From assembly GCF_012910785.2 (NCBI RefSeq), contig NZ_WTVH02000009.1, forward strand, positions 744,001 through 808,000: DNA of 64,000 nucleotides, in the 5' to 3' direction. The notes beneath the pieces are model-generated. The model was not told the origin of the DNA, did no database searches, and worked only from the letters and a program-made list of their open reading frames with translations. The DNA comes from Aromatoleum buckelii (GTDB taxonomy: Bacteria; Pseudomonadota; Gammaproteobacteria; Burkholderiales; Rhodocyclaceae). Below are positions 27,764 through 47,751 of this stretch, piece by piece (position 1 is the first letter of the stretch; each line of letters starts with the position of its first letter). A program made the position numbers and the translations under genes.

Positions 27764-27783
27764 ATTGTTTGACGTCAAACAAT
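27764..27783. promoter_or_regulatory. 20-bp palindromic operator before the AOR gene
   Basis: ATTGTTTGACGTCAAACAAT is a perfect palindrome, sized like a MarR-family site. A near copy (18 of 20 bases) lies at 47732-47751, directly upstream of a marR gene. Confidence 0.72.
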
Positions 27784-27900
27784 GGCGGCGAGAAATGAAT
27801 GCCTTCGAACGGCAACTGATTTCCGAACCTTCGGCGACGAACCTCTGCGCTGTCTCATCCCTCGATCGCGCCACCCGCCCGGGCATCGAAACGGCGGTGC

Positions 27901-27928
27901 AAATGAAAACGGGCGCCGCGGCGCCCGT
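27901..27928 (-). terminator. Terminator of the porin gene
   Basis: Palindromic stem ACGGGCGCC-GC-GGCGCCCGT at 27909-27928; on the minus strand it is followed by TTTTCATTT, a fair U-rich tail, 20 bases after the porin stop. Confidence 0.78.
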
Positions 27929-27948
27929 CGATTCTGGGCAGCAGATGA

Positions 27949-28998
27949 TCAGAACAGGTGGTTCAAACCGACCATCAGGTTGCGGCTCGTGTCGCCGGGC
28001 GAAGTGTTGGCCGCGCTCACAAACGACGGGGAGCGGACTGCCCGTCCGTCGTCGTTGCTGATGTGGCCGTAACCAGCGTAGGCGAGCGTGCGCTTCGACA
28101 GCGAGTGGGAGTACACCAAAGCCCAGGAGTCGGCGTCGCTGTCGTTCGTATCCGCGTCCAATTGGCCATAGGCCACGGAGAATTTGCCCGAGGTGCCAAT
28201 CGGCAAGGTGCCGCCGATATGCCAGACGTTGTCGGTGTCTTCCGCTGCGGTGGCATCCTCGATGCGCTGATACGAGCCGGCCAGCTTGAACACGCCGAAA
28301 TCGTAGGAACCGCCGATGTATGCTTCGCGCTTGTCCTCGTCGCCGACGTGTTCCTTCACTTGGCTGTAGATCAGGCCGATGGCGAGCGGGCCGTTCGCGT
28401 AGTCGGCGCCGATGGCGGCAATGTCGCCTTTCCTGCGGTCGTCGTCCTGGTTTACTTCATTGAGACCATAGATCGCGTTGAGCGTCAGGCCGCCGAAGTT
28501 CGGCGACTTGTAGTTGATCGAGTTGCTGACGCGGGCGGGACCTCCTGCTACCAGGTTCGATCCGGCGGCAGCCGCCAGGGCAAACTGCGGGCTGATCGGC
28601 ACGGGAACGATGGCGTCGTACTTGAACACGTAGTAGCCCGGGTGGTACTGGCGACCGAGGCCGATGAAGCCGAAGCCGCCCTGCAGGCCGATGAACTGCT
28701 GCCGCGAAAGGTTGGGGGCTGCACCGAGGCCTGCGTTCTGGTCGAGCTCGATCCCGTACTCCAGCGTGAACAGGGCCTTGAGTCCGTTACCGAGGTCTTC
28801 GGTGCCGCGGAAGCCGAGGCGCGAACCCGCCCAGCCGCCACTCTGCACACCGGTAAATTTCGCGTCTCCGGTCTTGCCGTAGCCGATGAAAGCATCGGCC
28901 ACGCCATATACCGTCACATTCGACTGGGCTGCGGCGGAAGCCGAAACCAGACCGGCGACGATACAAGAGACCGCTATGGCGAGACGTTTTTTGTGCAT
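27949..28998 (-). CDS. Outer-membrane general porin (Gram-negative porin type)
   Basis: Barrel porin of 349 residues. Signal peptide MHKKRLAIAVSCIVAGLV through SASAAA, mature start QSNVTVYGVADAFIGY, which is the standard betaproteobacterial porin opening. The constriction-loop region and the terminal phenylalanine (LMVGLNHLF) are present. It lets small solutes, perhaps aromatic acids, enter the periplasm. Divergent from the TRAP importer operon, with which it shares a 447-base regulatory region. Confidence 0.92.
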   Translation of the reverse strand: MHKKRLAIAVSCIVAGLVSASAAAQSNVTVYGVADAFIGYGKTGDAKFTGVQSGGWAGSRLGFRGTEDLGNGLKALFTLEYGIELDQNAGLGAAPNLSRQQFIGLQGGFGFIGLGRQYHPGYYVFKYDAIVPVPISPQFALAAAAGSNLVAGGPARVSNSINYKSPNFGGLTLNAIYGLNEVNQDDDRRKGDIAAIGADYANGPLAIGLIYSQVKEHVGDEDKREAYIGGSYDFGVFKLAGSYQRIEDATAAEDTDNVWHIGGTLPIGTSGKFSVAYGQLDADTNDSDADSWALVYSHSLSKRTLAYAGYGHISNDDGRAVRSPSFVSAANTSPGDTSRNLMVGLNHLF

Positions 28999-29445
28999 TG
29001 ATTTCCCCTTTTTTGATGTGGATTCGAAGCCCGTTGCAAACTCGTCCGATGCAGGCCGGCAAGTTGAACTTTGTTATGAAAGGTGCTGCTCTCCCTGGTG
29101 AAACCTGTGCCGGTTCTTGTCGGCGCATCGCCGGGGCGATAACCATTCTTGCGCCAATGTATTTTCCGAATCGTGTCTAACAAATAGTTACAAGTCAAAC
29201 AAAAGATCAACGAATTCATCCATCAGGCATCGGATGCTTCACGGCGCGTGCCGCTGCAGAGCCGTCCTGAGGTCGGGGACAACCCGCTTGCGAAGTCCCT
29301 GGCAAGAGGCATTTATGAATATCGTAGATTGTTTGATATTCATCAATCGAAGCGAAAATAGGCGGTGCTTCGTGTTGTGGGGCGCCTGCCCCAGGCCTAT
29401 CGTGCAGGAAAACAAAAACCACGAACCGATACACCGGAGGAGCAG
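28999..29445. promoter_or_regulatory. Divergent porin/TRAP control region with FNR-type box
   Basis: An AT-richer 447-base gap between divergent genes. TTGAT-ATTC-ATCAA at 29333-29346 is a perfect FNR/AcpR consensus; its centre lies about 106 bases before the dctP start, leaving room for a class II promoter and a roughly 65-base leader. Direct half-sites GTCTAACAA (29175-29183) and GTCAAACAA (29194-29202), 19 bases apart, lie on the porin side and match halves of the 27764 palindrome. Confidence 0.65.
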
Positions 29446-30495
29446 ATGAGCAAAGGTATTTCAGCGGGATTCAAGGTAGTGGCCGGGGCGACGATGGCCC
29501 TGGCGTTCGGTGCAGCGTCGGCGCAGGAAGTGACGCTGAAGGTGCATCACTTTCTGCCGCCGGGTTCGACGGCGCACGCGAAGTTCATCACGCCGTGGTG
29601 CGACAAGATCAACAAGGAATCCGCCGGCCGGCTGAAATGCCAGATCTACCCGGCGATGCAGCTCGGCGGCACGCCGCCGCAGCTGATCGATCAGGCGCGT
29701 GACGGCATCGCCGACATCGTCTGGACGCTGCCCGGCTACAGCGCCGGGCGCTTCCCCGCGGTCGAAGTGTTCGAGTTGCCGTTCATGACCAAGACGGCGG
29801 AATTGTCGAGTCGTGCATTGTGGGAATACGTCACGGTGAACAAGCTCGACCAGACCGAGTTCAAGGACATTCATCCGATCCTGTTCCACGTCCACGACAG
29901 CGGCCAACTGCACCTTGTCAAAGGGCCGATCACCCAGCAGTCAGACTTCCGCGGCCTCAAGCTGAGGGCGCCGACGCGCCAGACGAACAAGTTCCTCGCC
30001 GCGCTCGGTGCGACGCCGGTCGGCATGCCGGTGCCGCAGGTTTCCGAAGCGCTGTCGAAAGGCGTCATCGACGGAGCGATGCTGCCGTGGGAAGTGGTCC
30101 CTGCGGTCAAGGCCCACGAACTGGTCAAGTTCCACAGCGAAGGCGACCCGAAAGCGCGCGCGCTCTACACGACCGCGTTCGTCTTCGCGATGAACAAGGC
30201 GAAGTACGCCAGCCTGCCCGCCGACCTGAAGCAGGTCATCGACGCCAATGGCGGAGCAGAGGCCTCGACGTGGGTCGGCAAGGTGTGGGACGAGTCGGCG
30301 GCCGCCGCGCGCAAACTGGCGTCGGACCGCGGCAACCAGTTCAATGTCATCCCCGCAGCCGAACTCAAGAAGTGGGAGAAGGCCGGCCAGCACGTCTATG
30401 ACTCGTGGGTTTCGGAAGTCTCGGGCAAGGGATACGACGGCAAGGCGCTGCTCAAGAGCGCGCAGGACCTGATCCAGAAGCACGATCCGATCTGA
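29446..30495 (+). CDS. dctP: TRAP transporter substrate-binding protein (DctP type)
   Basis: Periplasmic receptor of 349 residues. The signal peptide ends at GAASAQ, and the mature protein starts EVTLKVHHFLPPGSTAHAKF. The family's conserved arginine region (LRAPTRQTNKFLAALGATPVG) is visible near residues 175-190. The start at 29446 is set by GGAGGAG. The adjacent aryl-CoA ligase suggests an aromatic carboxylate ligand, for example 4-hydroxybenzoate, but this is inference. Confidence 0.92.
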   Translation: MSKGISAGFKVVAGATMALAFGAASAQEVTLKVHHFLPPGSTAHAKFITPWCDKINKESAGRLKCQIYPAMQLGGTPPQLIDQARDGIADIVWTLPGYSAGRFPAVEVFELPFMTKTAELSSRALWEYVTVNKLDQTEFKDIHPILFHVHDSGQLHLVKGPITQQSDFRGLKLRAPTRQTNKFLAALGATPVGMPVPQVSEALSKGVIDGAMLPWEVVPAVKAHELVKFHSEGDPKARALYTTAFVFAMNKAKYASLPADLKQVIDANGGAEASTWVGKVWDESAAAARKLASDRGNQFNVIPAAELKKWEKAGQHVYDSWVSEVSGKGYDGKALLKSAQDLIQKHDPI

Positions 30496-30509
30496 AGCAT
30501 TCGGCACCT

Positions 30510-30540
30510 CGCGATGCGAACCGCCTCGGTTCGCATCGCG
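30510..30540 (+). terminator. Intra-operon hairpin after dctP
   Basis: Perfect 13-base stem CGCGATGCGAACC / GGTTCGCATCGCG with loop GCCTC and no T-run, between the receptor gene and dctQ. Likely blocks 3' exonucleases so that the receptor mRNA outlasts the membrane-subunit mRNA. Confidence 0.65.
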
Positions 30541-30615
30541 GCCACATGACCCGCGGTCTGCGGGTCCGGCGACGAATCGCTCGCCGGCCGGGATCGCCTC
30601 ACCGGGAGACTTCAA

Positions 30616-31137
30616 ATGTCCGAACCCATTGCAACGCCGGTCTGTGCACCGCAGGACCCGATCGGCCGCTCACTGTTCTTCCTTTCCCGCACGTTCGCCG
30701 CGGCCGGCGGACTGGTGCTGGTCGCGGTCAGCATCATGTCGGTGTTCAGCATCGCGAGCCGCGCGCTGACCGGCAACGCAGTGCTCGGCGACTTCGAACT
30801 GGTGCAGATCGGTTCCGCCGTTGCGGTCGCCGCGTTCCTGCCGTGGGGCCAGATGCGCGGCAGCCACGTGTTTGTCGACTTCTTCACGACCGGCCTGCGC
30901 CCCTGTATGCGGGCACGACTCGACGGTCTCGGTGCCTTGTTGCTCGCCATCTGCGCTGGGATCGTGGCTTGGCGAATGACGATCGGCACGGTCGATCTCA
31001 GGGCCAGCAGTGAAACCTCGATGCTGCTCGGCGTGCCCACCTGGTACGCGTACATGCTGATGTCGCCGTCTTTCGCGCTGCTCGCCGCGACCGCGTTTTA
31101 CACGTCCTCACAGAAATTCCGGGAGCAGCCAGCATGA
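30616..31137 (+). CDS. dctQ: TRAP transporter small membrane subunit (DctQ type)
   Basis: Inner-membrane protein of 173 residues with four predicted segments. The family region around segment 2-3 reads LVQIGSAVAVAAFLPWGQMRG followed by SHVFVDFF, typical of DctQ. Stop overlaps the dctM start by ATGA at 31134. It partners the large subunit in sodium-driven uptake. Confidence 0.9.
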   Translation: MSEPIATPVCAPQDPIGRSLFFLSRTFAAAGGLVLVAVSIMSVFSIASRALTGNAVLGDFELVQIGSAVAVAAFLPWGQMRGSHVFVDFFTTGLRPCMRARLDGLGALLLAICAGIVAWRMTIGTVDLRASSETSMLLGVPTWYAYMLMSPSFALLAATAFYTSSQKFREQPA

Positions 31138-32453
31138 GCGGTACGGCAATCGGTGCAAGTTTCTTCGTTTTCCTGCTGGTGCTGCTGGCGCTGCGGGTGC
31201 CGATCGCAATCTCGATGCTGATCACCGGCGTGGCCGGCTACGTCACGATGGCGGGCTGGGATCCGCTGCTCGGCTATCTGAAGACCGCTGCCTACGGGCG
31301 CTATTCGATCTACGATCTGTCGGTCGTCCCGCTGTTCCTGCTGATGGGCAGCTTCGCGTCGCGCGGTGGCCTGTCGAAAGCGCTGTTCGGTGCCGCCGAA
31401 TCGATGATCGGTCATTACCGCGGCGGGGTCGCGATGGCGGCGGTCGGCGCTTGCGCAGGGTTCGGCGCGATTTGCGGCTCGTCGCTCGCGACGGCGGCGA
31501 CGATGGGGCAGGTCGCGCTGCCGGAACTGCGCCGGCTCAATTACTCGCCGGCACTCGCGACAGCGACGCTGGCCGCCGGGGGGACGCTGGGCATCCTGAT
31601 TCCGCCGTCGGTCGTGCTGGTGATCTACGCGATCCTCGCCGAGCAGAACATCGCCAAGCTGTTCGCGGCGGCGCTCATTCCCGGGATCATCGCCGCCCTC
31701 GGCTACATCGCCGTCATCGCGCTGCACTGTCGGCTCAACCCGGATGCGGGCCCGGCGGGGGAACGCAAGAGCGTGGCGCTGCGCATTCGTGCGCTGATCG
31801 ACGTATGGCCGGTGCTGGCGATCTTCGTCGTCGTCATCGGGGGCATCTACGGCGGCATCTTCACGCCGACCGAGGCCGCTTCGGTCGGCACGATCGGGGC
31901 AGGGGTGCTGGCAGTCGCCAAGGGCATGCGCCTGGACGGACTGATGGAGTCGCTGTACTCGACCGCCGAGGCCACGGCGATGATCTTCCTGATCCTGCTC
32001 GGGGCCGACGTGCTCAACGTGTTTCTCGCGCTGACGCAGATGCCGGCGGAACTGGCGAGCTGGGTTTCGGGTTCGGGACTGCCGCCGCTGCTGGTGCTGT
32101 TCGCGATCATCGTGATTTACGTGTTCCTCGGCTGCGTCATGGACAGCCTGTCGATGATCCTGCTGACGATCCCGATTTTCTTTCCGGTGATCATGGGGCT
32201 CGACTTCTGGGGCCTGGACCAGTCCGAGAAGGCGATCTGGTTCGGCATCCTCGCGCTGATGGTCGTCGAAGTCGGCCTCATCACGCCGCCCGTCGGAATG
32301 AACGTCTACATCATCAACAGCATGGCGAAGAATGTCCCGATGTCGGCGACTTTCCGGGGCATCGTGCCGTTCCTGATGTCGGACGCGCTGCGCGTCGTCC
32401 TGCTGGTTTTCTTCCCGGTCCTGACGCTGTTTCTGGTCCGGGTGATTGAATGA
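31134..32453 (+). CDS. dctM: TRAP transporter large membrane subunit (DctM type)
   Basis: Twelve-segment translocation channel of 439 residues. Recognisable motifs include FLLMGSFASRGGLSKALF, GTLGILIPPSVVLVIYAILA and the late TPPVGMNVYIIN. It completes a dctPQM operon that continues, 34 bases later, into an aryl-CoA ligase gene, tying import to activation. Confidence 0.93.
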   Translation: MSGTAIGASFFVFLLVLLALRVPIAISMLITGVAGYVTMAGWDPLLGYLKTAAYGRYSIYDLSVVPLFLLMGSFASRGGLSKALFGAAESMIGHYRGGVAMAAVGACAGFGAICGSSLATAATMGQVALPELRRLNYSPALATATLAAGGTLGILIPPSVVLVIYAILAEQNIAKLFAAALIPGIIAALGYIAVIALHCRLNPDAGPAGERKSVALRIRALIDVWPVLAIFVVVIGGIYGGIFTPTEAASVGTIGAGVLAVAKGMRLDGLMESLYSTAEATAMIFLILLGADVLNVFLALTQMPAELASWVSGSGLPPLLVLFAIIVIYVFLGCVMDSLSMILLTIPIFFPVIMGLDFWGLDQSEKAIWFGILALMVVEVGLITPPVGMNVYIINSMAKNVPMSATFRGIVPFLMSDALRVVLLVFFPVLTLFLVRVIE

Positions 32454-32487
32454 AATCCGGGCCTTCCGGGTTAGAGGAGAAATCGCA

Positions 32488-33969
32488 ATGAATGCTGCGG
32501 AAACTTTGTTGTCGACGGGCGCCGACACGGCGATCGCGATCGAATGCGACGATGAAAAAGTGAGTTACGCGGTGCTTCGCGACCGCGTGAGCCGTGCGGC
32601 CGGCGCGTGGAAGGCACTCGGCCTGCAACCCGGCAATCGCGTCATCGTGTTCGCGCCGGACAGTGTCGACTGGGTCGTTGCCTACCTCGGCGCGATCTGG
32701 GCGGGCGGGGTCGCGATCGGCGTCAATCCGCGCCTGTCGATGAACGAGTTCGCGCCGATCCTCAACGAATGCGAGCCGCGCTTCGTTTGGTGCGAGAACG
32801 AGCAGGCCAGCGCGCTCGTCGCGGAAGCCCATACCGCCGCAGAGATCGTCGCGGACGGCCCCGGCACGTCCAACTGGGCGACGCACCTCGCTGCGGCCGA
32901 AGCTATCGCGCCGCTCGAGCGCGCCACCGAGGACGCCGCCCTGTGGATCGGGACGTCCGGGACGACGGGCGTGCCGAAAGGCGTCGTCCATGCGCAGCGC
33001 ACGGTCGCCGACGCGCATTCGTTCGCCTGTGGCATCCTCGGGCTGACTGCGGCGGACCGGCTCTACGCCAGTTCCAAGCTGTTCTTCGCTTACGCGCTCG
33101 GCAACAGCCTTTTCGCGGGTCTGCGCGTCGGCGCGACGGTGATCCTCGATCGCGAATGGCCGACCGCCGAGCGCGTCGAGTACATGGTCGAAAAACACCA
33201 CCCGACGCTGCTGTTCAGCGTTCCGACGCTGTACCGCAAGATGCTGCAGACCGGCGTCGCGCGGCGGATCGCGAAATACGGCATCCGCCACTACGTCTCG
33301 GCCGGCGAAGCGCTGCCGCTGGGGGTGCGGCAGGACTGGCGCGAAGCGACGGGCCACACGTTGATCAGCGGCTACGGGACGTCGGAGACGCTGTGCCTGA
33401 TGCTCTTCAGCGACGACGATTCCGGCCTGATGCGGCCGACCCCGCTGACCGAAGTCCGTCATGCCGACGACGTCGATCCGGACGTGCCGCAGCGCGTGTG
33501 GATCCGCCATTCGGCAGTCGCGCTCGCGTATTGGAAGCGGCCCGAGGCGCAGGCGGACGGGTTCCGCGACGGCTGGTTTTCTCCCGGCGACATGTTCCTG
33601 CGCCACGCCGACGGGCGTTTCGAATACACCGGGCGCAACGACGACATGCTGAAGATCGCCGGCCAGTGGGTCAGCACCTTGTGGGTGGAGCAGTCGCTCG
33701 CATCGGTCTGTGGCGAAACGCTTCATCAGATCGCCTCCGTCGGGGTAAGCTCCGCCGACGGCCTGACGGCGCTCGCAGTGCTCGCAGTGGCAGCGCCGGA
33801 GCGCGGCAGCGAAGCACGCCGGAAGATGGACGAAGGGATTGCGACGCTGCCCGGTCATCGCCGTCCGCGCTGGGTCCATTGGCTCGATGAGCTGCCGCTG
33901 ACACCCACCGGCAAGCTTCAGCGCGGGCGTCTGCGGGCATTGCACGAGAGCGCAGTCGGCGTGTCCTGA
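32488..33969 (+). CDS. hcl: Aryl-CoA ligase, probably 4-hydroxybenzoate-CoA ligase
   Basis: AMP-forming ligase of 493 residues in the benzoate/4-hydroxybenzoate ligase group. Phosphate loop IGTSGTTGVPKGVVHAQR, substrate region SKLFFAYALGNSLFAGLR, hinge GRNDDMLKIAGQWVS and catalytic TPTGKLQRGRLR are intact. It is shorter than BclA. Start 32488 follows AGAGGAGA; an ATG at 32446 overlaps dctM and lacks a ribosome site. Context (p-cresol genes downstream, TRAP importer upstream) favours 4-hydroxybenzoate, the product of p-cresol oxidation. 3-Hydroxybenzoate or benzoate cannot be excluded. Confidence 0.8.
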   Translation: MNAAETLLSTGADTAIAIECDDEKVSYAVLRDRVSRAAGAWKALGLQPGNRVIVFAPDSVDWVVAYLGAIWAGGVAIGVNPRLSMNEFAPILNECEPRFVWCENEQASALVAEAHTAAEIVADGPGTSNWATHLAAAEAIAPLERATEDAALWIGTSGTTGVPKGVVHAQRTVADAHSFACGILGLTAADRLYASSKLFFAYALGNSLFAGLRVGATVILDREWPTAERVEYMVEKHHPTLLFSVPTLYRKMLQTGVARRIAKYGIRHYVSAGEALPLGVRQDWREATGHTLISGYGTSETLCLMLFSDDDSGLMRPTPLTEVRHADDVDPDVPQRVWIRHSAVALAYWKRPEAQADGFRDGWFSPGDMFLRHADGRFEYTGRNDDMLKIAGQWVSTLWVEQSLASVCGETLHQIASVGVSSADGLTALAVLAVAAPERGSEARRKMDEGIATLPGHRRPRWVHWLDELPLTPTGKLQRGRLRALHESAVGVS

Positions 33970-34026: not shown

Positions 34027-36168
34027 ATGCGCGCGGACGAACTTGATTTCTTCTCCCTCGTCGAGCTGCGGCCCAACGAAGGGGCGATCGAGTTCTGCGG
34101 CCGTCGCGCGATCCTGCTGCATACCGATGCGATGGGAGCGCTGCGCAAGGAGCTCGTCGAGACGCTCGGCGCGGAGGCGGCGAAAGTCGTCCTGACGCGC
34201 TACGGCTTCAGTTGCGGCCACGAGGATGCCGGCCTCCTCGCCGCGTACATGCATCCGGACACGATCGAGCAGTTCGTCCGCGGCGGCCCGCGCACGCACA
34301 TGTTCGCCGGCATCGCCGAAGTCGAGACCCGCTCCGTCGAGATCGACTGCGAGCGCCGGCGCTATCGCATGGGCGGTTTCTGGCGCCGCTCGTACGAAGC
34401 CGAGCAGCACTTGCGCCTGTTCGGCCGCTCTCATGAAGCGGTGTGCTGGACGCTGGCCGGCTACGCGTCCGGCTTCGCGTCGTTCGTGTTCCAGACCGAC
34501 ATGATCTGCATCGAGCACGAATGCGAAGGGCGCGGCGACGAGCGCTGTTCGTGGACGCTGATGAATGCCGACGACGGCTCGCCCGAACTCGCCGAACTGC
34601 GCAAGTATTTCCAGCCGCTGAACATCAAGGATCAGATCAACGGACTCGAAACCAAGGTCTTCGAGCGCACGCGCGAGCTCGAGGCGTCCGAGCAGCGTTA
34701 CCGCAACCTGATCGAGGATCTGCCCGAAATCGTCTTCGCGCTGCATCTGTCCGGTCGTCTGGTGCAGCTCAACAAGGCCGGGCGGACGCGCCTGGGCATC
34801 GACGAGGCCGAGCTGCCGTCGCTGCGCCTGAAGGATCTGGTGCTGCCGGAGTATCGCGCGCAGGCGTCGAGCTTCCTGAAGCAGAGCGCGCGGCAGCGCA
34901 GTGTGAGCCGCCTCGATGTCGTGATGAGCGATTCGGCCGGACACCCTTTCCCCGTGCAGTTGCAGGTCGAGCCGGTCATCAAGGACGACAAGATCGTCGG
35001 CTACAGCGGTCTCGCGCTCGATGTCACTGCGCAACAGGAACGCGAACGCAAGCTCACCGAATATGCCGCGCGGCTCGAGAATCGGGAACAGCAGATTCAG
35101 GACATCATCAACGATGCGGTGTACATCCTCGATCTGGACGGGCGCCTGAGCTTCGTCAATACGCGCATGGCGGAGCTTCTTGGCGTGCCCGCGGACCGCG
35201 CGATCGGCCGACGCTGCGGCGAATTCATGCTGCATTCGTCGGCATTGCGACTGGAGCGGGATTTCCGGCGGCGTCTGGCCGGCGGGCCGGGGCTGCCGTT
35301 CGAGATCGCGATCGAGGCGCCGGGCGGGACGAACTGCCTCCTCGAAGTCAGCACCGCGGTGCTGCTGACGAATGGCAAAGCGGAAGGCGTGATCGGCGTC
35401 GCGCGTGACATCACCGCCCGGCGCGAAATGGAGCGACAGCTCGCGCAGGCGAATCGCCTCAGTTCGCTGGGGCAGTTCGCTTCCGGCATCGCGCACGAGA
35501 TCAACAACCCGCTCGGCCTCGTGTCGGGCTTCGCCGAAGAGCTGCAGTCGCTGATGGAGGCGATCCCGAATGCCGCGCAGATCCCCGGCCTGGAAATCAT
35601 CCGCGACGGGCTGACGACGATCCAGGAACAGGCGCAGCGCTGCAAGGCGATCACCGACAATCTGCTGCTTTTTTCGCGCCGACAGAGTCCGCCGATCGAA
35701 CCGGTGGACGTCGCGTTGTACGTGCGTGAGCGCTTTGCCTCGTATCGCGAGGTCGGCCTCACGCGCGGGCTGGAGATCACGTTCGACATCGAGGAGCGCC
35801 TGCCGCCGGTGCGCACGAACCCGACGCTGCTCGACCAGGTGCTCCAGAACCTCGTCAAGAATGCACGCGACGCGATGAACGGCGCGGGCCGCCTGCGGGT
35901 CGAGCTGCGAAGCGCGGACGACGCCGTCGAGTTCGGCGTGCTCGACGAAGGCGCTGGTCTGCCTGCGGGCGTCATCGACCATGTCTTCGACCCCTTCTTC
36001 ACGACGAAGCCGCCGGGCCGCGGTACCGGCCTCGGCCTGTCGATCTGCTACGGGATCATGTCCGAGCTGCACGGCAGGATCACCTGCGGCAATCGGCAAG
36101 AAGGCGGGGCGTGGTTCCGGATTTCGCTGCCGTACGACGAAGCCGGCATCGAGGGGGCGGACCGATGA
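34027..36168 (+). CDS. pcrS: Sensor histidine kinase with XylR-type effector domain
   Basis: Soluble kinase of 713 residues with no membrane segments. In order: XylR-N effector domain (about 1-110), V4R domain (about 118-190, SHEAVCWTLAGYASGFASFV, then CEGRGDERCSW), a short coiled linker, two PAS domains (about 230-340 and 360-470), phospho-acceptor His490 in GIAHEINNPLG, and an ATPase domain with FFTTKPPGRGTGLGLS. XylR-N/V4R domains bind phenols or methylbenzenes directly in DmpR and XylR; here that input is placed on a kinase. The pair with the regulator next door and the p-cresol genes suggests p-cresol sensing, as proposed for PcrSR of A. aromaticum. The symbol is from memory. Confidence 0.85.
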   Translation: MRADELDFFSLVELRPNEGAIEFCGRRAILLHTDAMGALRKELVETLGAEAAKVVLTRYGFSCGHEDAGLLAAYMHPDTIEQFVRGGPRTHMFAGIAEVETRSVEIDCERRRYRMGGFWRRSYEAEQHLRLFGRSHEAVCWTLAGYASGFASFVFQTDMICIEHECEGRGDERCSWTLMNADDGSPELAELRKYFQPLNIKDQINGLETKVFERTRELEASEQRYRNLIEDLPEIVFALHLSGRLVQLNKAGRTRLGIDEAELPSLRLKDLVLPEYRAQASSFLKQSARQRSVSRLDVVMSDSAGHPFPVQLQVEPVIKDDKIVGYSGLALDVTAQQERERKLTEYAARLENREQQIQDIINDAVYILDLDGRLSFVNTRMAELLGVPADRAIGRRCGEFMLHSSALRLERDFRRRLAGGPGLPFEIAIEAPGGTNCLLEVSTAVLLTNGKAEGVIGVARDITARREMERQLAQANRLSSLGQFASGIAHEINNPLGLVSGFAEELQSLMEAIPNAAQIPGLEIIRDGLTTIQEQAQRCKAITDNLLLFSRRQSPPIEPVDVALYVRERFASYREVGLTRGLEITFDIEERLPPVRTNPTLLDQVLQNLVKNARDAMNGAGRLRVELRSADDAVEFGVLDEGAGLPAGVIDHVFDPFFTTKPPGRGTGLGLSICYGIMSELHGRITCGNRQEGGAWFRISLPYDEAGIEGADR

Positions 36169-37532
36169 ACCGACATATCCTGATCGTCGACGACGAGGCG
36201 CTGTACCGCCAGCTGCTCACCAGCCGGCTCGGCCGCGCCGGCTACCGCCTCAGCGAAGCTGCGGACGGCGAAGCGGCGCTCGAATGTGCGCAACACGGTG
36301 GAATCGACCTCGCGCTCGTCGACATCAAGATGCCGGGCATCGACGGCATCGAGGTGTTGAAGCGCCTCAAGGAGCTCGACCCGCTGATCGAAGTCGTTAT
36401 CCTGACGGGGCACGGCAACGTCGACACCGCGATCTCGGCAATGAAGCTCGGGGCCTTCGACTACCTGTCGAAACCTTACAAGCTGACCGAGCTCGACATC
36501 GTCGTCGAGCGTGCGCTCGAAAAGCGTGCGATGGCACAGCGCTGCGCAGCACTGAGCGCCGAAATCGCCCATCTGCGCGGCCCGGAGGAGGCGGCCGTGA
36601 TCGGCGCGAGCCCCGCCTGGCAGCGCACCCTCGCGCTCGTCCGCAAGGCCGCACCGCTCGACTTGCCGGTGCTGATCACCGGCGAGAGCGGCGCCGGCAA
36701 AGAGGTCGTCGCGAGCGCGCTGCACCGCTGGAGCGGCCGCGCGGCCGAATCGTACGTGCCGCTGAACTGCGGTCTGCTCGATGACGATCTCGTCGAAAGC
36801 GAACTGTTCGGCCACAAACGGGGCGCGTTCTCCGGGGCGACGAGCGACAAGGACGGCCTGTTCCAGGTCGCAAGCGCCGGAACGCTGTTCCTCGACGAAA
36901 TCGGCGAACTTCCCGCCGCCTGCCAGGCGAAGCTGCTGCGCGTGCTCGACAGCGGCGAATTCCGGCAACTCGGAGCGACCGCGCTGCGGCACACCCGCGC
37001 GCGCGTCATCGCCGCGACGCACCGCGACCTCGATGCGCTGGTCGCGGGGGGCAAATTCCGGCACGACCTCCTGTATCGCCTGAACGTCGTCCATATCCAT
37101 GTCCCGCCGCTGCGCGAGCGGCGCGAAGACATTCCGCTGCTCGTCGACTACCTGATGCGCCGCGCCGCATCCCACCTGACCCGCCTGCCGCGCCTCTCCG
37201 CGGCGGCGCTGTCCCGGCTATCCGATTATCCTTGGCCGGGCAACGTGCGCGAGTTGCGCAACGTCATCGAGCGCCTGCTGGTCTTCCACGAGGGCGAGAC
37301 GATCGACGAGGCTACGGTCTGTTCGATCTTGTCGATCCCGCCGGAAATATCGACGGCTTCCGCTGCGCGCCGTGCCTTTTCCGCCATCACGCCTCTCGAA
37401 GAATTCGAACGCGAATACATCGTCTGGGTGCTCGACAAGCTGGACGGCAACGTCAGCGCCGCAGCCCACGCGCTCGGCGTGTCGCGCTCGACGGTGTATC
37501 GTTTTCTGCGCACTACCCAGCCTGCCGATTAG
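36165..37532 (+). CDS. pcrR: Sigma-54-dependent response regulator
   Basis: NtrC-type activator of 455 residues. Receiver domain with phosphorylatable Asp53 (LALVDIKMPG), AAA+ domain with Walker A GESGAGKE at 173-180, the sigma-54 contact loop at 220-225 reading GAFSGA instead of GAFTGA, and a Fis-type HTH at the C-terminus (SAAAHALGVSRSTVYRFL). Start overlaps the kinase stop by ATGA. It should activate -24/-12 promoters; two candidates lie downstream at 37975 and 39242. Confidence 0.9.
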   Translation: MNRHILIVDDEALYRQLLTSRLGRAGYRLSEAADGEAALECAQHGGIDLALVDIKMPGIDGIEVLKRLKELDPLIEVVILTGHGNVDTAISAMKLGAFDYLSKPYKLTELDIVVERALEKRAMAQRCAALSAEIAHLRGPEEAAVIGASPAWQRTLALVRKAAPLDLPVLITGESGAGKEVVASALHRWSGRAAESYVPLNCGLLDDDLVESELFGHKRGAFSGATSDKDGLFQVASAGTLFLDEIGELPAACQAKLLRVLDSGEFRQLGATALRHTRARVIAATHRDLDALVAGGKFRHDLLYRLNVVHIHVPPLRERREDIPLLVDYLMRRAASHLTRLPRLSAAALSRLSDYPWPGNVRELRNVIERLLVFHEGETIDEATVCSILSIPPEISTASAARRAFSAITPLEEFEREYIVWVLDKLDGNVSAAAHALGVSRSTVYRFLRTTQPAD

Positions 37533-39612: not shown

Positions 39613-39619
39613 GCGCGCT

Positions 39620-40270
39620 ATGGAGCGACGTGATTTCCTCAAGGGAGTGTTGGGAGGCGGAGCGCTGGCCGGAATGCCGCTCGGGACCTTCGCAGCCGCA
39701 GCCGCGCCGGCCGATATCGGGGCCGCAGTCCCGGTGACCCTCGTCAGCCAGGTCGATCTGCCTTTTGCGGCGGCGCTCGCCGGACGGATCGCCGGCAGCC
39801 TGGAGGCGAGGGGCCTGCGCGTCGCCCGGCTTGCACCGCACGGCAACGAGCTGGGCCGCTACGCGAGCGTCATGTCGATCCTCGACGGCGCGCGCCACGG
39901 GCATCTGATCGGGGTCATGGACGATGCCTCGGCGGTGATCGTCCAGCAGCTCGCGGCTTCCCGCGGCGCGGCGTGCGTGATCCAGACGCATCACAGGGTG
40001 TCAGAAGGGGCGGTGCGCAGCTGCTGCACCGTTGCCGGCCTCGACTCGAATCTCGTCTGGTCCGACGGCGTCGCGTCGCCGGCAGACCGTATCGGGCGCC
40101 TGTACGCCCAGGCGGTCGGTCGCGGAGGCGCCAGGTCGAGCAGCCCGGCTGCAGTTGCCGAAGACGCGTTCGCAAGCGCCAGCGGCGCTTCCGCGGCGAG
40201 CCTCGTGTCTTTCGTCATCAACACCTCGAGCATCGGACGAGGTCATACATCCACGGAGACCGCAGCATGA
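39620..40270 (+). CDS. Tat-exported hypothetical protein of the p-cresol operon
   Basis: Protein of 216 residues with a twin-arginine signal (MERRDFLKGVLGGGALAGMP) and an Ala-rich cleavage region. The mature part shows no family I recognise; it has a cysteine pair (RSCCTV) and ends in a Ser/Ala-rich tail. It lies between pchC and pchF and overlaps the pchF start by ATGA, implying tight coupling. Because PchF has no signal peptide of its own, this protein could be an export or maturation partner; that is inference. Confidence 0.75.
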   Translation: MERRDFLKGVLGGGALAGMPLGTFAAAAAPADIGAAVPVTLVSQVDLPFAAALAGRIAGSLEARGLRVARLAPHGNELGRYASVMSILDGARHGHLIGVMDDASAVIVQQLAASRGAACVIQTHHRVSEGAVRSCCTVAGLDSNLVWSDGVASPADRIGRLYAQAVGRGGARSSSPAAVAEDAFASASGASAASLVSFVINTSSIGRGHTSTETAA

Positions 40271-41814
40271 GTTCAAACAACAGGGTACTGCCGAAAGGCG
40301 TGACGGCCGGCGATTTCGACAAGGCGATGCAGGAGATCCGCGCCATCGTCGGCGCCGAGTACGTGCTCGTCGACGAGGAGCCACTCGCGCCGTACAACAA
40401 GATCATGGTGCCGGTGGCCGATGCGCAGCATGCGCCGTCCGCGGCGGTCATGCCGGACGGCGTCGAGCAGGTCCGGAAAATCATGAAGGTCGCGAACACG
40501 TACCGCGTGCCGGTCTATCCGATCTCGACCGGCAAGAACATCGGCTACGGTTCGGCAGCACCAGTCGAGCGCGGCCAGATCGTCCTGGACCTGCGGCGCA
40601 TGAACCGGATCATCGAAGTCGATGCGGAGTTGTGCACCGCGCTCGTGGAACCGGGCGTGACTTACCAGCAGCTCTACGACTATCTGCAGGAGCACAACCT
40701 TCCGCTGTGGTTCTCGTGCCCGGCGCCGTCGGCGATCGCCGGCCCGGTCGGCAACATGGTCGACCGCGGCGTCGGTTACACGCCTTACGGCGAACATTTC
40801 ATGTTCTCGTGCGGCATGGAAGTCGTGCTCGCCGACGGCGAAGTGCTGCGCACCGGCATGGGCGCGATGGAGAATTCGAACACTTGGCAGGTGTTCAAGT
40901 GGGGCTACGGACCGACGCTCGACGGCATCTTCACGCAGTCGAACTACGGCATCGTCACGAAAATGGGAATGTGGCTGATGCCGGCGCCGCCGGACTTCCG
41001 CCCGTTCTGCATCCAGTACCCGAACGAAACCGACATCACGAAGATCGTCGATGCGCTACGCCCGTTGCGCATCGCGATGGTGATCCCGAACGCCGTGGTG
41101 ATCGCCCACACGCTGTGGGAAGCGCCGTGCACGCCGGTCAAGCGCAGCGACTACGTCACCGGGCAGGGCGCGATTTCCGACGACGCAGTGCTGAAGATCC
41201 AGGCCGACCACGGCATCGGCGCGTGGAACGTGTACGCGGGTCTCTACGGCACGAAGGAAACCAACGACGCGAACTGGAAAATCATCGAGGCGGTCGCGGC
41301 CGCCACCGGCGGCAAAATCATCACCGAAGAAGCTTCGCGCGGCAGCCAGGCGCTGCAATACCGCTTCGACCTGATGAAAGGCAAGCCGAACCTCGGCGAG
41401 TTCGGGCTGTACAACTGGCGCGGCGGCGGCGGCTCGATCTGGTTCGCGCCGGTGTCGCAGGCAAAAGGCTCCGAGACGCTCAAGCAGATGAAGATGGCGA
41501 AGGAGATCCTCGGCAAGTACGGCTTCGACTACGTCGGCGAATTCATTGTCGGCTGGCGCGACATGCATCACGTCATCGATCTCCTCTACGACCGTTCGGA
41601 CGACACACAGACCAAGAACGCCTACGCGTGCTACGACGAGCTGCTGCATACCTTCGCGAAGGAAGGCTACGGCATGTACCGCGCGAGCACCGCATTCGCC
41701 GAGAAGGTCGCAGCGACTTACGGGCCTGTGAAGCGCGACGTCGAAAAGCGCCTGAAGCAGGCGCTCGATCCGAACAACATCATCGCGCCGGGCCGGTGCG
41801 GCATCAGCCTCTAG
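40267..41814 (+). CDS. pchF: p-Cresol methylhydroxylase flavoprotein subunit
   Basis: Flavoenzyme of 515 residues closely resembling Pseudomonas PchF along its full length, from MSSNNRVLPKGVTAGDF to the C-terminal DPNNIIAPGRCGI. It oxidises p-cresol with water, via a quinone methide, to 4-hydroxybenzyl alcohol and 4-hydroxybenzaldehyde. FAD-binding segments YPISTGKNIGYGSAAP and APSAIAGPVGNMVDRGVG are intact. Tyr382 in FGLYNWRGGGGS corresponds to the tyrosine that carries covalent FAD (Tyr384 in P. putida). No signal peptide is present. Confidence 0.95.
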   Translation: MSSNNRVLPKGVTAGDFDKAMQEIRAIVGAEYVLVDEEPLAPYNKIMVPVADAQHAPSAAVMPDGVEQVRKIMKVANTYRVPVYPISTGKNIGYGSAAPVERGQIVLDLRRMNRIIEVDAELCTALVEPGVTYQQLYDYLQEHNLPLWFSCPAPSAIAGPVGNMVDRGVGYTPYGEHFMFSCGMEVVLADGEVLRTGMGAMENSNTWQVFKWGYGPTLDGIFTQSNYGIVTKMGMWLMPAPPDFRPFCIQYPNETDITKIVDALRPLRIAMVIPNAVVIAHTLWEAPCTPVKRSDYVTGQGAISDDAVLKIQADHGIGAWNVYAGLYGTKETNDANWKIIEAVAAATGGKIITEEASRGSQALQYRFDLMKGKPNLGEFGLYNWRGGGGSIWFAPVSQAKGSETLKQMKMAKEILGKYGFDYVGEFIVGWRDMHHVIDLLYDRSDDTQTKNAYACYDELLHTFAKEGYGMYRASTAFAEKVAATYGPVKRDVEKRLKQALDPNNIIAPGRCGISL

Positions 41815-41822
41815 GAGGAGAC

Positions 41823-43265
41823 ATGAAGGAATACAAGCTCTTCATCGACGGTGAATGGGTCGAGTCGTCGTCGGGCACGATTCTCGACGACCTCAATCCG
41901 GCGACCGGCGAAGTGTTCGGACGCGTGCATCAGGCTTCGGCCGATGATCTGGAGCGCGCGATCGCGGTGGCGTACCGCGCGCGTGAAAGCTGGGGCGGCA
42001 CGCTCGCGAACGAGCGCGAGGCGATCTTGATGCGCGCAGCGACGATCCTTGAGCAACGCATCCCGGAAGTGGCCGAGGTGCTGATCGACGAAGCCGGCTC
42101 GACGTTCGGCAAGGCGATGTTCGAGGCGTCGTTCGTCGTGAACCTGCTGCGCAGCGCTGCAGGCGAATGCCGGCGCATCACCGGCGAGACGATCCCGTCG
42201 GACAGCCCCGGCGTGTTCTCGATGAGCGTGCGCCGGCCGCTGGGGGTGATTGCGGGCATCGCGCCGTTCAACTTCCCGTTCCTCCTCGCGACGAAGAAAG
42301 TCGCGCTCGCGCTCGCCGCCGGCAATACCTTCATCCTGAAGCCCGCGAGCTACACGCCGGTCACGGGGCTCAAGATCGCCGAAATCTTCGAGGCCGCGGG
42401 CCTGCCGAAAGGCGTGCTGAACGTCGTGCCGGTGCAGGGTTCGGTGCTCGGCAACACTTTCGTCTCCGACCCGCGCATCCGCATGATTACTTTCACCGGC
42501 TCGACCGAGGTCGGGCGGGAGCTGTCGGCTGAGGCCGGCAAGCACTTCAAGCGCATCACGCTGGAACTCGGCGGGAAAAGCCCGCTGATCGTGCTGAAGG
42601 ACGCCGACGTCGATTACGCAGTCGATGCCGCCGCGTTCGGCATCTTCCTGCACCAGGGCCAGGTGTGCATGGCGAACTCGCGCCTGATCGTCGAGGCGCC
42701 GATCTTCGACGCGTTCTGCGACAAGCTGACCGCCAAGATCAAGAGCTTTCAGGTCGGCGATCCGCATGACCCGCAGACCGTGATCGGCCCGCTGATCGAC
42801 CGCAAGCAGTGCCGCGTGCTCGATGGCCACGTCGCCGACGCCGTCAGTAAAGGTGCGACGCTGCTTACCGGGGGCAGGAGCGAAGGTGCTTTCTACCAGC
42901 CGACGATTCTCGCCGGCGTGACGCCCGACATGCTGGTGTTCCGCGAAGAGAGTTTCGGCCCGGCGGTATCGGTGATCCGCGCCGCAGACAGCGAAGCGGC
43001 GCTGAAGCTCGCGAACGACTCGTGCTACGGCCTCTCGTCGGGCCTGATCACGAACGACCTGCAGAAAGCGTTCGACCTGTCGCTGCGGCTCGAGGCGGGG
43101 ATGGTGCACATCAACGACTCTTCGATCATGGACGAGCCGCATGTGCCGTTCGGCGGCGTCAAGGACAGCGGCTTCGGGCGCGAGGGCGGGCATCACTCGA
43201 TGGACGAGATGACCGAACTCAAGTGGATCACCGTGCAACTGGGTCAGCGGCAGTTCCCGTTCTGA
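41823..43265 (+). CDS. pchA: Aldehyde dehydrogenase, probably 4-hydroxybenzaldehyde
   Basis: NAD(P)-dependent aldehyde dehydrogenase of 480 residues. Catalytic Cys282 (GQVCMANS) and general base Glu248 (LELGGKSP) are present, with the cofactor motif FTGSTEVGREL. Placed eight bases after pchF with a strong AGGAGGAGA ribosome site, it should oxidise 4-hydroxybenzaldehyde to 4-hydroxybenzoate. Family assignment is certain and the substrate is inferred from the operon. Confidence 0.85.
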   Translation: MKEYKLFIDGEWVESSSGTILDDLNPATGEVFGRVHQASADDLERAIAVAYRARESWGGTLANEREAILMRAATILEQRIPEVAEVLIDEAGSTFGKAMFEASFVVNLLRSAAGECRRITGETIPSDSPGVFSMSVRRPLGVIAGIAPFNFPFLLATKKVALALAAGNTFILKPASYTPVTGLKIAEIFEAAGLPKGVLNVVPVQGSVLGNTFVSDPRIRMITFTGSTEVGRELSAEAGKHFKRITLELGGKSPLIVLKDADVDYAVDAAAFGIFLHQGQVCMANSRLIVEAPIFDAFCDKLTAKIKSFQVGDPHDPQTVIGPLIDRKQCRVLDGHVADAVSKGATLLTGGRSEGAFYQPTILAGVTPDMLVFREESFGPAVSVIRAADSEAALKLANDSCYGLSSGLITNDLQKAFDLSLRLEAGMVHINDSSIMDEPHVPFGGVKDSGFGREGGHHSMDEMTELKWITVQLGQRQFPF

Positions 43266-43345
43266 TGCAGCCCGGTCCCCGGCACTGCGCCGCGATGCGC
43301 AGTGTGGGGCGGGTGGTGCGGAAAATCGAATATCAGGGAGAAAAC

Positions 43346-45446: not shown

Positions 45447-45844
45447 TGGACATCAACAAGGAAACCCGCAGCCTGCCGGAACTCTTCACCGATCTGATGC
45501 GTGAAACCTCGACGCTCGTGCGCAAGGAGATTGATCTCGCGAAGGCGGAGATGAGCGAAAAGATTTCGCAGACGACGTCCGCGCTGACCTCGCTCGCGGT
45601 GGGCGGGGTCATCGCGTTCGCCGGCGTGCTGGTGCTGCTCGACGGCATTGCGCGCGCGATCGCCGTGTTCGCCGACATCGGCCTGTGGGCCGCTGCGCTG
45701 CTCGTCGGCGTCATCGTCCTGGTCATCGGGCTGGTGATGCTGAATCGCGGCCGCCACAACCTCGACGCGCGCAACCTCGTGCCGCGGCGCACCGCGCAAT
45801 CGCTGCGCAGGGACAAGGAATTCGTGAAGGAGCAGACGAGATGA
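45446..45844 (+). CDS. Phage-holin-family (YqjE-like) membrane protein
   Basis: Protein of 132 residues: an amphipathic N-terminal helix (SLPELFTDLMRETSTLVRKE) followed by two membrane segments (about 46-72 and 76-100). This matches the holin-superfamily III/YqjE group, which are membrane proteins of uncertain role linked to stress, not true holins. ATG 45446 is preferred over GTG 45443. It overlaps the downstream gene by ATGA. Confidence 0.82.
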   Translation: MDINKETRSLPELFTDLMRETSTLVRKEIDLAKAEMSEKISQTTSALTSLAVGGVIAFAGVLVLLDGIARAIAVFADIGLWAAALLVGVIVLVIGLVMLNRGRHNLDARNLVPRRTAQSLRRDKEFVKEQTR

Positions 45845-47028
45845 ACACAGACAATCCCAGGAATGCCACTTACCGGCAGCCGCAGCAGTATCTCGACGAG
45901 GGGCAGACGCGCGCGCCCGATGCGCCGATGACATCCGACCGCAGCCCGGACGAGATCGAGGCCGAGATCGCAGCGGAGCGCGCACGGATGGGCGACACGC
46001 TCGAGGCGATCCAGCGCCGGCTGTCGCCGGGGCAATTGCTCGACCAGGTGCTCGACTACACGAAGCGCGGGTCGGGCGATTACGTGGCGAATCTCGGCGC
46101 CAGCGTCAGGGACAACCCGCTGCCGGCAACACTCGTCGCGGTCGGCCTCGCGTGGCTGATGGCGTCGGGAACGGGCACGCATATGCGCAGTGCAGAGCAC
46201 ATCGCTCGCCCGAGGGCTGCGGACGACGAGTCCTCGACCGGACGGATCAAGGGCGCGGCCGAGCGTGCGAGTTCGGCGGTGAGCGACGTGGTCCATCGCG
46301 TCGGCGACGCCGCGCGCAGCGTCAGGGAAAGTGTCAGTGGCGCGGCTCACAGCGCGCGAGAAAGCGTCGGGCACGCACGCGAATCCGGATCGCACGCCGG
46401 CGAGCGGATGCGCGAACAGGGCCGCCACGCGCGCGATTCGGCCAAGCATTACGCGGAGCGCGCCTCCAGCGGTTGGAGCTATATGGCCACCGAGCAGCCG
46501 CTCGTGCTCGGCGCGATCGGCGTGGCAATCGGCGCCGCGCTGGGTGCGGGACTGCCGTCGACGCGGCGTGAAGACGAACTGCTCGGTGAATACCGCGATG
46601 AGCTTGTCGATCGCGCCACGGAGACCGGCAAGGAGCAACTGGAGCGTGGCAAGCGGGTCGCTACGGCCGCGGTCAGCGCCGCCGCGTCCGAGGTCGATCG
46701 CAAGGCCAGGTCAGCGGAGGCAGGCGACGACACGACCGGCGCGGGACCGGGCGGCATGGAGGCGGTCGCCAAGGCGGCTGCTGCCGCCGCGAAGGGAGAG
46801 GCCGAGCGGCAGGGGATCCTGCATATCGGTTCGGGGTCCGCGATGAAGTCGGGGACGGCCGAGAGCGCGCAGGCGACCTCGACGTCGGGCGCGAGTGGAA
46901 TTGCGAGCGGTTCTTCGGCCGCGACGACCGGGTCGTCGCCGTCCGCCCAAGGGACGAGTCCCGCCGGCGCGAGCGCCTCCGCCTCTGGCGCGACTCCAGC
47001 GTCCACGAAGTCGCCCGGCAGCAGGTAG
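45841..47028 (+). CDS. DUF3618-type membrane protein with long low-complexity tail
   Basis: Protein of 395 residues. Residues ~32-75 carry the DUF3618 pattern (SPDEIEAEIAAERARMGDTL, then EAIQRRLSPGQLLDQ). A weak membrane segment is near 85-100, a Lys/Arg/Ser/His-rich helical stretch spans 120-210, a clear membrane helix (PLVLGAIGVAIGAALGAGLP) is near 220-240, and the last ~100 residues are Ala/Ser/Gly/Thr-rich. It likely organises or protects the envelope under stress, but no precise role is known. Confidence 0.82.
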   Translation: MNTDNPRNATYRQPQQYLDEGQTRAPDAPMTSDRSPDEIEAEIAAERARMGDTLEAIQRRLSPGQLLDQVLDYTKRGSGDYVANLGASVRDNPLPATLVAVGLAWLMASGTGTHMRSAEHIARPRAADDESSTGRIKGAAERASSAVSDVVHRVGDAARSVRESVSGAAHSARESVGHARESGSHAGERMREQGRHARDSAKHYAERASSGWSYMATEQPLVLGAIGVAIGAALGAGLPSTRREDELLGEYRDELVDRATETGKEQLERGKRVATAAVSAAASEVDRKARSAEAGDDTTGAGPGGMEAVAKAAAAAAKGEAERQGILHIGSGSAMKSGTAESAQATSTSGASGIASGSSAATTGSSPSAQGTSPAGASASASGATPASTKSPGSR

Positions 47029-47098
47029 CACCGCTGGTCGCAAGCGAACCGGGCGGGCGCAAGAAACCGGAGTCTTCCGCGAACGATAATGCGACGCG

Positions 47099-47138
47099 CG
47101 ACGGCGAGGCGAGGTCAAGACGTCTCGCCGTCGTTTTT
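47099..47138 (+). terminator. Terminator of the 44661-47028 operon
   Basis: Stem ACGGCGAGGCG / CGTCTCGCCGT (one G-T pair, extendable by two more pairs) with a nine-base loop, followed by CGTTTTT. Confidence 0.82.
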
Positions 47139-47163
47139 GCAGAAGCGTTCCGCCGAATCTGGC

Positions 47164-47649
47164 TTACGTATGCGACTGCGTCAGACGCTGTTCCGGAAAG
47201 ATCTTCTGCAGCAGCCTCACCAGCGTGACGCGCTCCTCTTCGGACAGGTGTTCGACGAGCCGTTTCTCGTGTTCGCCGACGCGGCGCTTGAGCTTTTTCA
47301 GCAGCGCGACCCCGTCCGGAGTGAGCACCAGCGCGTTCGAGCGACGGTCGTTTTCGGCCGGGCGTCGTTCGACGAGACCGCGCCGTTCGAGATTGTCGAT
47401 CACCGAAACCACCGTCGAGCGGTCGAGGTGCGCGGCACGGGCAAGTTCGCTCTGCTTGAGCCCGGGGTTCGCGTCAATGATGACGATGACGCCGAACAGT
47501 CCGGGCGTGACGTCGAACTCGCCGAGCGCAGCGGCGAAATCGCGAAAGATCGCGATCTGTGCAAGCCGCAGCTGATAACCCGCCAGACTGGGCAGAATGC
47601 CGAAATCGAGGCCTTTGTCTGCGGATGTTTTCTTTTTTGTCATGTCCAT
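47164..47649 (-). CDS. MarR-family regulator
   Basis: Protein of 161 residues. The winged HTH includes LKQSELARAAHLDRSTVVSV and the wing RRPAENDRRSNALVLTPDG, both diagnostic of MarR. Helical ends form the dimer interface. Start at 47649 (MDMTKKKT); an ATG two codons later is also possible. A 20-bp element (47732-47751) lies about 80 bases upstream, shared with the divergent ferredoxin gene, and is nearly identical to the palindrome before the AOR gene. It therefore probably represses itself, the ferredoxin and the AOR. Confidence 0.88.
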   Translation of the reverse strand: MDMTKKKTSADKGLDFGILPSLAGYQLRLAQIAIFRDFAAALGEFDVTPGLFGVIVIIDANPGLKQSELARAAHLDRSTVVSVIDNLERRGLVERRPAENDRRSNALVLTPDGVALLKKLKRRVGEHEKRLVEHLSEEERVTLVRLLQKIFPEQRLTQSHT

Positions 47650-47731
47650 TCCGGGCTTGGCGTCACGGGCGCCACTCAGGTTCCAGGGTCGAATGCTACC
47701 GCAGATCGGCTCCGCGTTGAACTGCGCTTGT

Positions 47732-47751
47732 ATTGTTAGACATCAAACAAT
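47732..47751. promoter_or_regulatory. MarR-type operator between marR and ferredoxin genes
   Basis: ATTGTTAGACATCAAACAAT matches the perfect palindrome at 27764-27783 in 18 of 20 positions. Its position between divergent genes fits autoregulation plus control of the ferredoxin. Confidence 0.7.

Follow-up and report, generated by a model that had tools for sequence, protein, structure and literature searches.

A shared palindrome suggests a CouR-like MarR repressor of ferredoxin supply and use in Aromatoleum buckelii

The locus and its two palindromes

The stretch of DNA considered here (“the window”) comprises 64,000 nucleotides of the Aromatoleum buckelii genome (contig NZ_WTVH02000009.1, positions 744,001 to 808,000). 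In it, a gene of the AOR/WOR family is preceded by a 20-bp palindrome, and a closely similar 20-mer lies between a marR gene and a divergently oriented gene for a 2[4Fe-4S] ferredoxin (Table 1). An earlier note on this DNA had proposed that the MarR protein controls the AOR-family and ferredoxin genes through these sites. A direct check of the sequence found both 20-mers where that note had located them. The palindrome is perfect in the first and nearly so in the second, and the two agree at 18 of their 20 bases. With up to three mismatches allowed, the window contains no match besides these two, and 100 dinucleotide shuffles of it produced none at that tolerance. The first palindrome ends 47 bp from the ATG of the AOR-family gene (27716-27714, minus strand). 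The second is flanked by marR, whose start is at 47643 or 47649, and by the ferredoxin gene; this palindrome in the promoter of marR itself has an equivalent at the same place in the genomes G100 and G137 and in A. anaerobium LuFRes1.

Table 1. Features of the window, with positions counted from its first nucleotide
Feature	Position	Strand	Basis
AOR/WOR-family gene, 774 residues; AFOR_N, AFOR_C and a fused C-terminal ThiS/MoaD-like domain	25392-27716	minus	domain matches
Predicted -10 box TATACT, with a 17-bp spacer to the -35 box	27750-27755	minus	sequence; conserved -10 columns in an alignment of 26 AOR promoters
Predicted operator 1, AOR promoter: 20-bp perfect palindrome ATTGTTTGACGTCAAACAAT	27764-27783	.	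sequence; matrix score 34.6
Predicted -35 box TTGACG of the AOR promoter, within the palindrome	27773-27778	minus	sequence; alignment of 26 AOR promoters
Look-alike TTGATGAATATCAAACAA before the TRAP operon, FNR/AcpR-type box; excluded as operator	29329-29346	minus	perfect TTGAT-N4-ATCAA
TRAP transporter (DctP, small open reading frame in the DctQ position, DctM) and aryl-CoA-ligase-like gene	29446-33969	plus	model matches
marR, CouR-like, 161 (first ATG) or 159 (second ATG) residues	47164-47649	minus	NCBIfam, PDB and fold matches
Predicted operator 2, between marR and the ferredoxin gene: near-perfect palindrome ATTGTTAGACATCAAACAAT	47732-47751	.	matrix score 30.6
2[4Fe-4S] ferredoxin, YfhL type, 65 residues	47896-48093	plus	NF033683, 99.7 bits (cut-off 86)

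The MarR-family protein

Matches to NCBIfam and the Protein Data Bank (PDB) identify the product of marR as a MarR-type winged helix-turn-helix protein, every NCBIfam match lying below its equivalog cut-off. A structure model of moderate quality (mean predicted local distance difference test score, pLDDT, of 74.7) was used in a fold search, and all 50 of the matches listed are of the MarR-family type; CouR in complex with DNA ranked first and CouR with p-coumaroyl-coenzyme A (CoA) fifth. CouR is also the closest solved structure by sequence (89 bits, the next at 41) and by profile (113 bits, the next at 55), and the two proteins are 35-40% identical in the fold alignments. The best family match, though below its cut-off, is the NCBIfam model of Saro_0803.

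Distribution of the motif in the genome

The genome to which the window belongs (4.16 Mb in 10 contigs) was scanned with the pattern TTGTTWGACRTCAAACAA. At up to three mismatches it occurs at 10 places, which correspond to 18 oriented matches, as against 1 for the reversed pattern. The exact 14-bp core, GTTTGAYRTCAAAC, is found at three places only: before the AOR-family gene, before korA (C5:148694), which specifies a 2-oxoacid:ferredoxin oxidoreductase, and before hcrC (C5:587846), which specifies 4-hydroxybenzoyl-CoA reductase. A single mismatch to the core occurs at the marR/ferredoxin site, at a gene that we call bzdN2, between rnf and DUF1499 genes, and at C5:351384, which sits in an apparent coding frame and was taken as a chance occurrence. 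Two mismatches occur at 19 further places, nine of which were inspected; the reversed control gave 3 places for up to two mismatches. The earlier note had stated that its proposal would be refuted if the motif were frequent at unrelated loci. With the exact core confined to three places, that frequency is not observed for the strong form.

Some weaker candidate sites may be recorded here. The rnf/DUF1499 site (C5:488571) does not have the form of a canonical FNR box, and neither gene is close to it; a similar site is present in G100 (score 25.8) and not in G137. Another, at a MeaB-XdhC gene (C2:108174), overlaps the predicted start, and a better version of it exists in G100. Candidate sites also occur at EamA (C5:628681) and histidine-kinase (C4:918091) genes.

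Linkage and operator position in relatives

Relatives were sought with a profile of 17 MarR sequences, and the best 80 of 105 candidate stretches were retained, giving 79 named loci. They derive from Aromatoleum anaerobium, toluclasticum, tolulyticum, toluvorans, diolicum, toluolicum and evansii, an Azoarcus sp., and Sulfuritalea, Rhodocyclales and Burkholderiaceae assemblies, and some are short contigs. Where the MarR protein is at least 60% identical, the fetched flanks hold a homolog of the AOR-family, kor, ferredoxin or hcr genes in 42 of 54 loci (AOR 32, kor 24, ferredoxin 25, hcr 2). Less similar MarR proteins have such a neighbor in 0 of 25 loci, a count that depends on the identity cut-offs used (60% for AOR and hcr, 55% for ferredoxin, 45% for kor); one of the 25 holds bzdN. 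A MeaB-XdhC homolog is near marR in 12 of the 54 loci.

The gene order varies. In many loci marR precedes the AOR-family gene; several Sulfuritalea-like loci have the order korA-korB-fdx-AOR-marR-AOR; and a divergent arrangement of marR and korA-korB-fdx is found in six Aromatoleum loci and one Azoarcus locus. The genome of the window has no close homolog of the marR-adjacent korA (39-40% identity at best, with the query from locus L139). Therefore, its marR/ferredoxin pair looks like the remnant of an arrangement from which the local korAB was lost, while another korAB, located elsewhere, has the putative operator.

The position of the palindrome is conserved with that of the AOR-family gene. 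We scored sites with a matrix of 18 sites, seeded in part from the loci being scored and supplemented with hcr sites from the window’s own genome and from G044 and G114; because of this overlap, a matrix made from four sites of the window’s genome alone was used as well. Of 40 AOR copies, the first in L113 was excluded, since its segment stops short of the N-terminus. Among the 26 copies that follow marR, 23 have a site scoring at least 10 within 150 bp upstream, its distance from the start being 42-56 bp (19 of 26 with the four-site matrix), compared with 0 of 26 in the reversed-sequence control and 0 of 13 for copies that precede marR. In L140, L141 and L143, 1.3-2.4 kb separate marR from the following AOR copy. 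Across the 1.08 Mb of the loci, the matrix gave 63 hits scoring 10 or more, against 2 in the reversed sequence. With the four-site matrix, such a site stands upstream of 18 of 37 AOR genes versus 36 of 708 other genes, among them some that share a divergent site.

When 26 AOR promoters selected because they contain the site are aligned, the conserved columns are those of the palindrome and of a TATAnT -10 element. A -35 box (TTGACR/TGGACA) falls inside the palindrome, 17 bp from the -10 element. An operator that overlaps the -35 box implies repression. Inspection by eye found, in some hcr promoters, a -10-like element immediately before the operator, which is also compatible with repression.

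The motif also occurs in other settings. In L148, L159 and L170, good to perfect palindromes lie near marR genes that are 48-62% identical, beside genes for 2Fe-2S reductases (that of L170 matches the BenC model below its cut-off), hinting at other regulons with the same motif. In G017 (L091:2873-6385), a palindrome precedes the gene for a 1170-residue protein, which matches glutamate-synthase-beta-like oxidoreductase models below their cut-offs and is perhaps another ferredoxin-linked target.

Co-occurrence across the family

Among 150 genomes of the family, 30 encode the MarR protein (E at most 1e-30). It is present in 17 of the 18 genomes with a full-length AOR, in 14 of 14 with hcrC (E at most 1e-50) and in 21 of 26 with bzdN, for hypergeometric probabilities of 1.8e-13, 8.1e-12 and 3.0e-14, respectively, values that ignore the relatedness of the genomes. 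By genus, MarR accompanies AOR in 13 of 13 cases, counting one genus (g30) in which the two are in different genomes, and hcrC in 9 of 9. The sole genome with a full-length AOR and no MarR protein (G088) has no site upstream of that gene, which closely follows another apparent reading frame.

The operator motif itself, TTGTTTGAYRTCAAACAA, occurs at 44 places in 29 of these genomes when up to two mismatches are allowed; the reversed control was found in 7 of the 150, once in each. Eight of the 44 match TTGTTTCACGTGAAACAA and were set aside as parS-like, by comparison with what we take to be the parS consensus. Of the remaining 36, 25 are in MarR-positive genomes (11 of 30 genomes), 15 of these in three genomes of the window’s genus, and 11 are in MarR-negative ones (11 of 120). 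These places were sorted by hand, as were the overlaps of MarR with AOR, hcrC and bzdN. Sites scoring at least 10 precede hcrC in 8 of 13 upstream regions and the AOR-family gene in 6 of 14; two of these 14 regions belong to distant AORs. The site before korA scores 27.5 in the genome of the window and 17.1 in both G100 and G137.

The AOR-family protein

The earlier note had called the gene before the first palindrome a tungsten AOR gene. Membership in the AOR/WOR family is borne out by the AFOR_N and AFOR_C domains and the iron-sulfur cysteines of the protein; the residue set of the aldehyde-oxidizing members is another matter. Thr243, Glu313, Tyr427 and His448 (PfAOR numbering) are listed for most of those members (PMC13328260). 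In the window protein, Thr243 and His448 are kept, whereas Glu313 is replaced by Val and Tyr427 by His, and both replacements are present in all 43 of the aligned segments that are at least 60% identical. With two of the four residues changed, “AOR” is used here as a family name only, and its substrate should not be assumed. The protein is a putative WOR variant. Its fused ThiS/MoaD domain ends in AGG. The structure model was poor (mean pLDDT 45.9) and was not used.

Neighboring genes and look-alike sites

The closest structural matches of the window ferredoxin, among several, are 3eun (84 bits) and 1rgv (75 bits), the latter of which we take to be a Thauera ferredoxin. In the TRAP transporter region, the DctP and DctM models are matched above their cut-offs and the ligase models HbdA and benz_CoA_lig below theirs; DctP is near marR in 11 of the 54 loci with the closer MarR proteins and an aryl-CoA ligase in 3. 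A histidine kinase gene followed by one for a sigma-54 response regulator (34027-37532) is possibly a phenol- or p-cresol-sensing pair, and residues 7-219 of the kinase match, weakly and far below the cut-off, the model of the phenol regulator MobR. Farther on (39973-43265), a gene for a FAD-linked oxidase, which we read as p-cresol-methylhydroxylase-like, precedes an aldehyde dehydrogenase frame.

The site before the TRAP operon was considered as a MarR operator and rejected, as it contains a perfect TTGAT-N4-ATCAA box. The same box occurs in the site at C2:813768, before bzdN2, at about the distance from bzdN at which AcpR acts in Azoarcus, and this gene was likewise set aside as an unproven target. 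Both boxes carry an ACAA extension; similar boxes, mostly look-alikes by eye, are found in FdhD/PaaX intergenic regions of other Aromatoleum loci. The genome of the window has two bzdN copies, at C4:730641 (about 12 kb before the window) and C2:813886, and the stretch upstream of the copy other than bzdN2 (L189) has no site scoring above 8.

A proposed regulon and its alternatives

We conclude that a single CouR-like MarR protein is likely to repress genes of ferredoxin supply and use through the operator TTGTTTGAYRTCAAACAA. That it binds the two sites in the window is very probable, and there is good reason to expect that hcr and korAB are among its targets too. From these sequence features we infer the following mechanism. 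A dimer of the MarR protein would occupy both the -35 region of the AOR promoter and the site separating marR from the ferredoxin gene, blocking transcription; the same operator would control korAB and hcr elsewhere on the chromosome. The expected makers of reduced ferredoxin (2-oxoacid:ferredoxin oxidoreductase and the AOR-family enzyme), ferredoxin itself and a user of it, 4-hydroxybenzoyl-CoA reductase, would thus come under one repressor. Activation of an aromatic acid would yield the aryl-CoA, most likely 4-hydroxybenzoyl-CoA or benzoyl-CoA, that releases the repressor. We give the choice of an aryl-CoA as effector about an even chance, because of the relationship to CouR, the presence of hcr in the regulon and the aryl-CoA-ligase-like genes near some marR genes. 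As for the earlier proposal, control of both the AOR-family and ferredoxin genes is strongly supported by the linkage, the palindrome in the AOR promoter and the co-occurrence with MarR, but the regulon appears to be larger than was thought, with korA and hcrC belonging to it as well.

Several observations weigh against this proposal. As judged by eye, the ferredoxin and hcr promoters do not have the clean -35/17/-10 pattern of the AOR promoters. No good hcrC site was found in 5 of the 13 regions (G048, G103, G073, G010 and the second hcr of the window’s genome), and none was found upstream of korA in G044. The marR-kor intergenic region of the six Aromatoleum loci and the Azoarcus locus lacks a good site, the best scores being 5.2 with the 18-site matrix and at most 8.4 with the four-site one. 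By the latter matrix, a site of at least 10 stands upstream of only 11 of 61 marR genes and 5 of 21 korA genes; autoregulation and kor control are therefore not general, and would be lineage-dependent or exerted via weaker sites. The AOR-family enzyme may not oxidize aldehydes. Finally, Saro_0803 is reported to respond to resveratrol, which is no CoA ester.

A different possibility, which we hold to be a serious one though the less probable, is that MarR is a substrate-specific repressor of hydroxybenzoate or p-cresol catabolism. The AOR-family enzyme and hcr would then be pathway steps, and the electron-supply genes would be included because hcr needs ferredoxin, with no general electron-supply regulon. 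This is consistent with the operator at hcr, with the presence of MarR in every genome that has hcrC and with the TRAP and aryl-CoA-ligase genes near marR in some relatives. Another point in its favor comes from A. tolulyticum (L097), in which a cytochrome gene adjoining a p-cresol-methylhydroxylase-like gene has a good palindrome at its predicted start; no palindrome corresponding to it was found in the oxidase region of the window. Yet hcrC, at the threshold given above, is missing from 16 of the 30 MarR genomes, and hcr is in only 2 of the 54 linked loci, compared with 24 for kor and 32 for AOR.

It is far less probable that another regulator, such as a protein of the FNR/AcpR type, binds the palindrome and that MarR is a bystander. 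The perfect TTGAT-N4-ATCAA boxes of the bzdN2 and TRAP look-alikes would fit such a protein, and AcpR, an activator of the FNR/CRP type, acts at -41.5 of the Azoarcus bzdN promoter (PMC6678401). The sites before the AOR-family gene, korA and hcrC, however, lack that box and have a different center of symmetry, and the motif and marR both co-occur and are physically linked in relatives. The two look-alikes are better read as FNR boxes. Lastly, a coincidental likeness of two palindromes that are the only copies in the window and lie 20 kb apart is hardly credible given the empty shuffles, the exact core at three functionally related loci in the whole genome and the conserved positions in relatives.

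If the proposed repressor of ferredoxin supply and use is real, one protein joins ferredoxin reducers, ferredoxin and a ferredoxin user, showing electron supply matched to demand. Anaerobic aromatic ring-reducing enzymes depend on reduced ferredoxin. The proposal would also give a functional context to a conserved AOR-like family, and both could be tested directly with one protein and a small set of DNA probes. A bolder version, which we regard as rather doubtful, is that MarR is an aryl-CoA-sensing repressor for the low-potential electron economy and that its AOR-like target, whose chain includes a sulfur-carrier-like domain and whose active site is altered, is no aldehyde oxidoreductase but a tungsten-type enzyme of aromatic metabolism that works beside 4-hydroxybenzoyl-CoA reductase and ferredoxin.

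Comparison with known systems

The regulators of aromatic catabolism known to us or met in the literature (BzdR, BoxR, BadR and MbdR) control substrate pathways. CouR, for its part, regulates p-coumarate catabolism. Like the putative role of the window’s MarR protein, that of CouR is repression, and its structures include, by their entry titles, DNA-bound and p-coumaroyl-CoA-bound forms (6c28, 6c2s and 6c9t, which we take to be the Rhodopseudomonas palustris protein). The CouR box of Rhodococcus, cATTGA-N5-TCAATg (PMC4737184), differs from the window palindrome.

A literature search combining MarR, aldehyde ferredoxin oxidoreductase and operator returned no match, and neither the regulator nor the motif was found in titles and abstract openings, a scope that leaves out most subscription papers. 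The passages retrieved from a comparative study of betaproteobacterial aromatic regulation (PMC6449761), a systems study of A. aromaticum (PMC9765128) and a paper on Thauera aromatica KorAB (PMC9973337) hold no mention of MarR.

BadR of Aromatoleum sp. CIB and R. palustris is also a MarR-type repressor of an anaerobic ring pathway, and that of strain CIB responds to cyclohexane-carboxyl-CoA (PMC9795900). Its targets are the bad and ali genes, and its operator, CAATnnATTG (consensus from the same paper), is in neither 20-mer of the window. BzdR and AcpR at bzdN of Azoarcus/Aromatoleum provide a further instance of repression of anaerobic ring reduction, responsive to benzoyl-CoA (PMC6678401), but BzdR binds TGCA repeats, and AcpR is an activator. 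Within the same genus as the window, AorABC of A. aromaticum EbN1 is an enzyme of the AOR/WOR family (PMC6365974). It consists of three subunits with separate MoaD-like proteins, whereas the window encodes a single chain with its own ThiS domain and altered active-site residues.

A parallel for the electron-transfer side of the proposal is the KorAB-ferredoxin chain of T. aromatica; the window ferredoxin matches 1rgv, as noted above. In T. aromatica, KorAB provides reducing power to benzoyl-CoA reductase, and a title cited in the same paper names a ferredoxin as the electron donor of 4-hydroxybenzoyl-CoA reductase (PMC9973337). Given that chain and the ferredoxin matches, the products of kor, fdx and hcr plausibly form, by analogy, one electron chain in A. 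buckelii.

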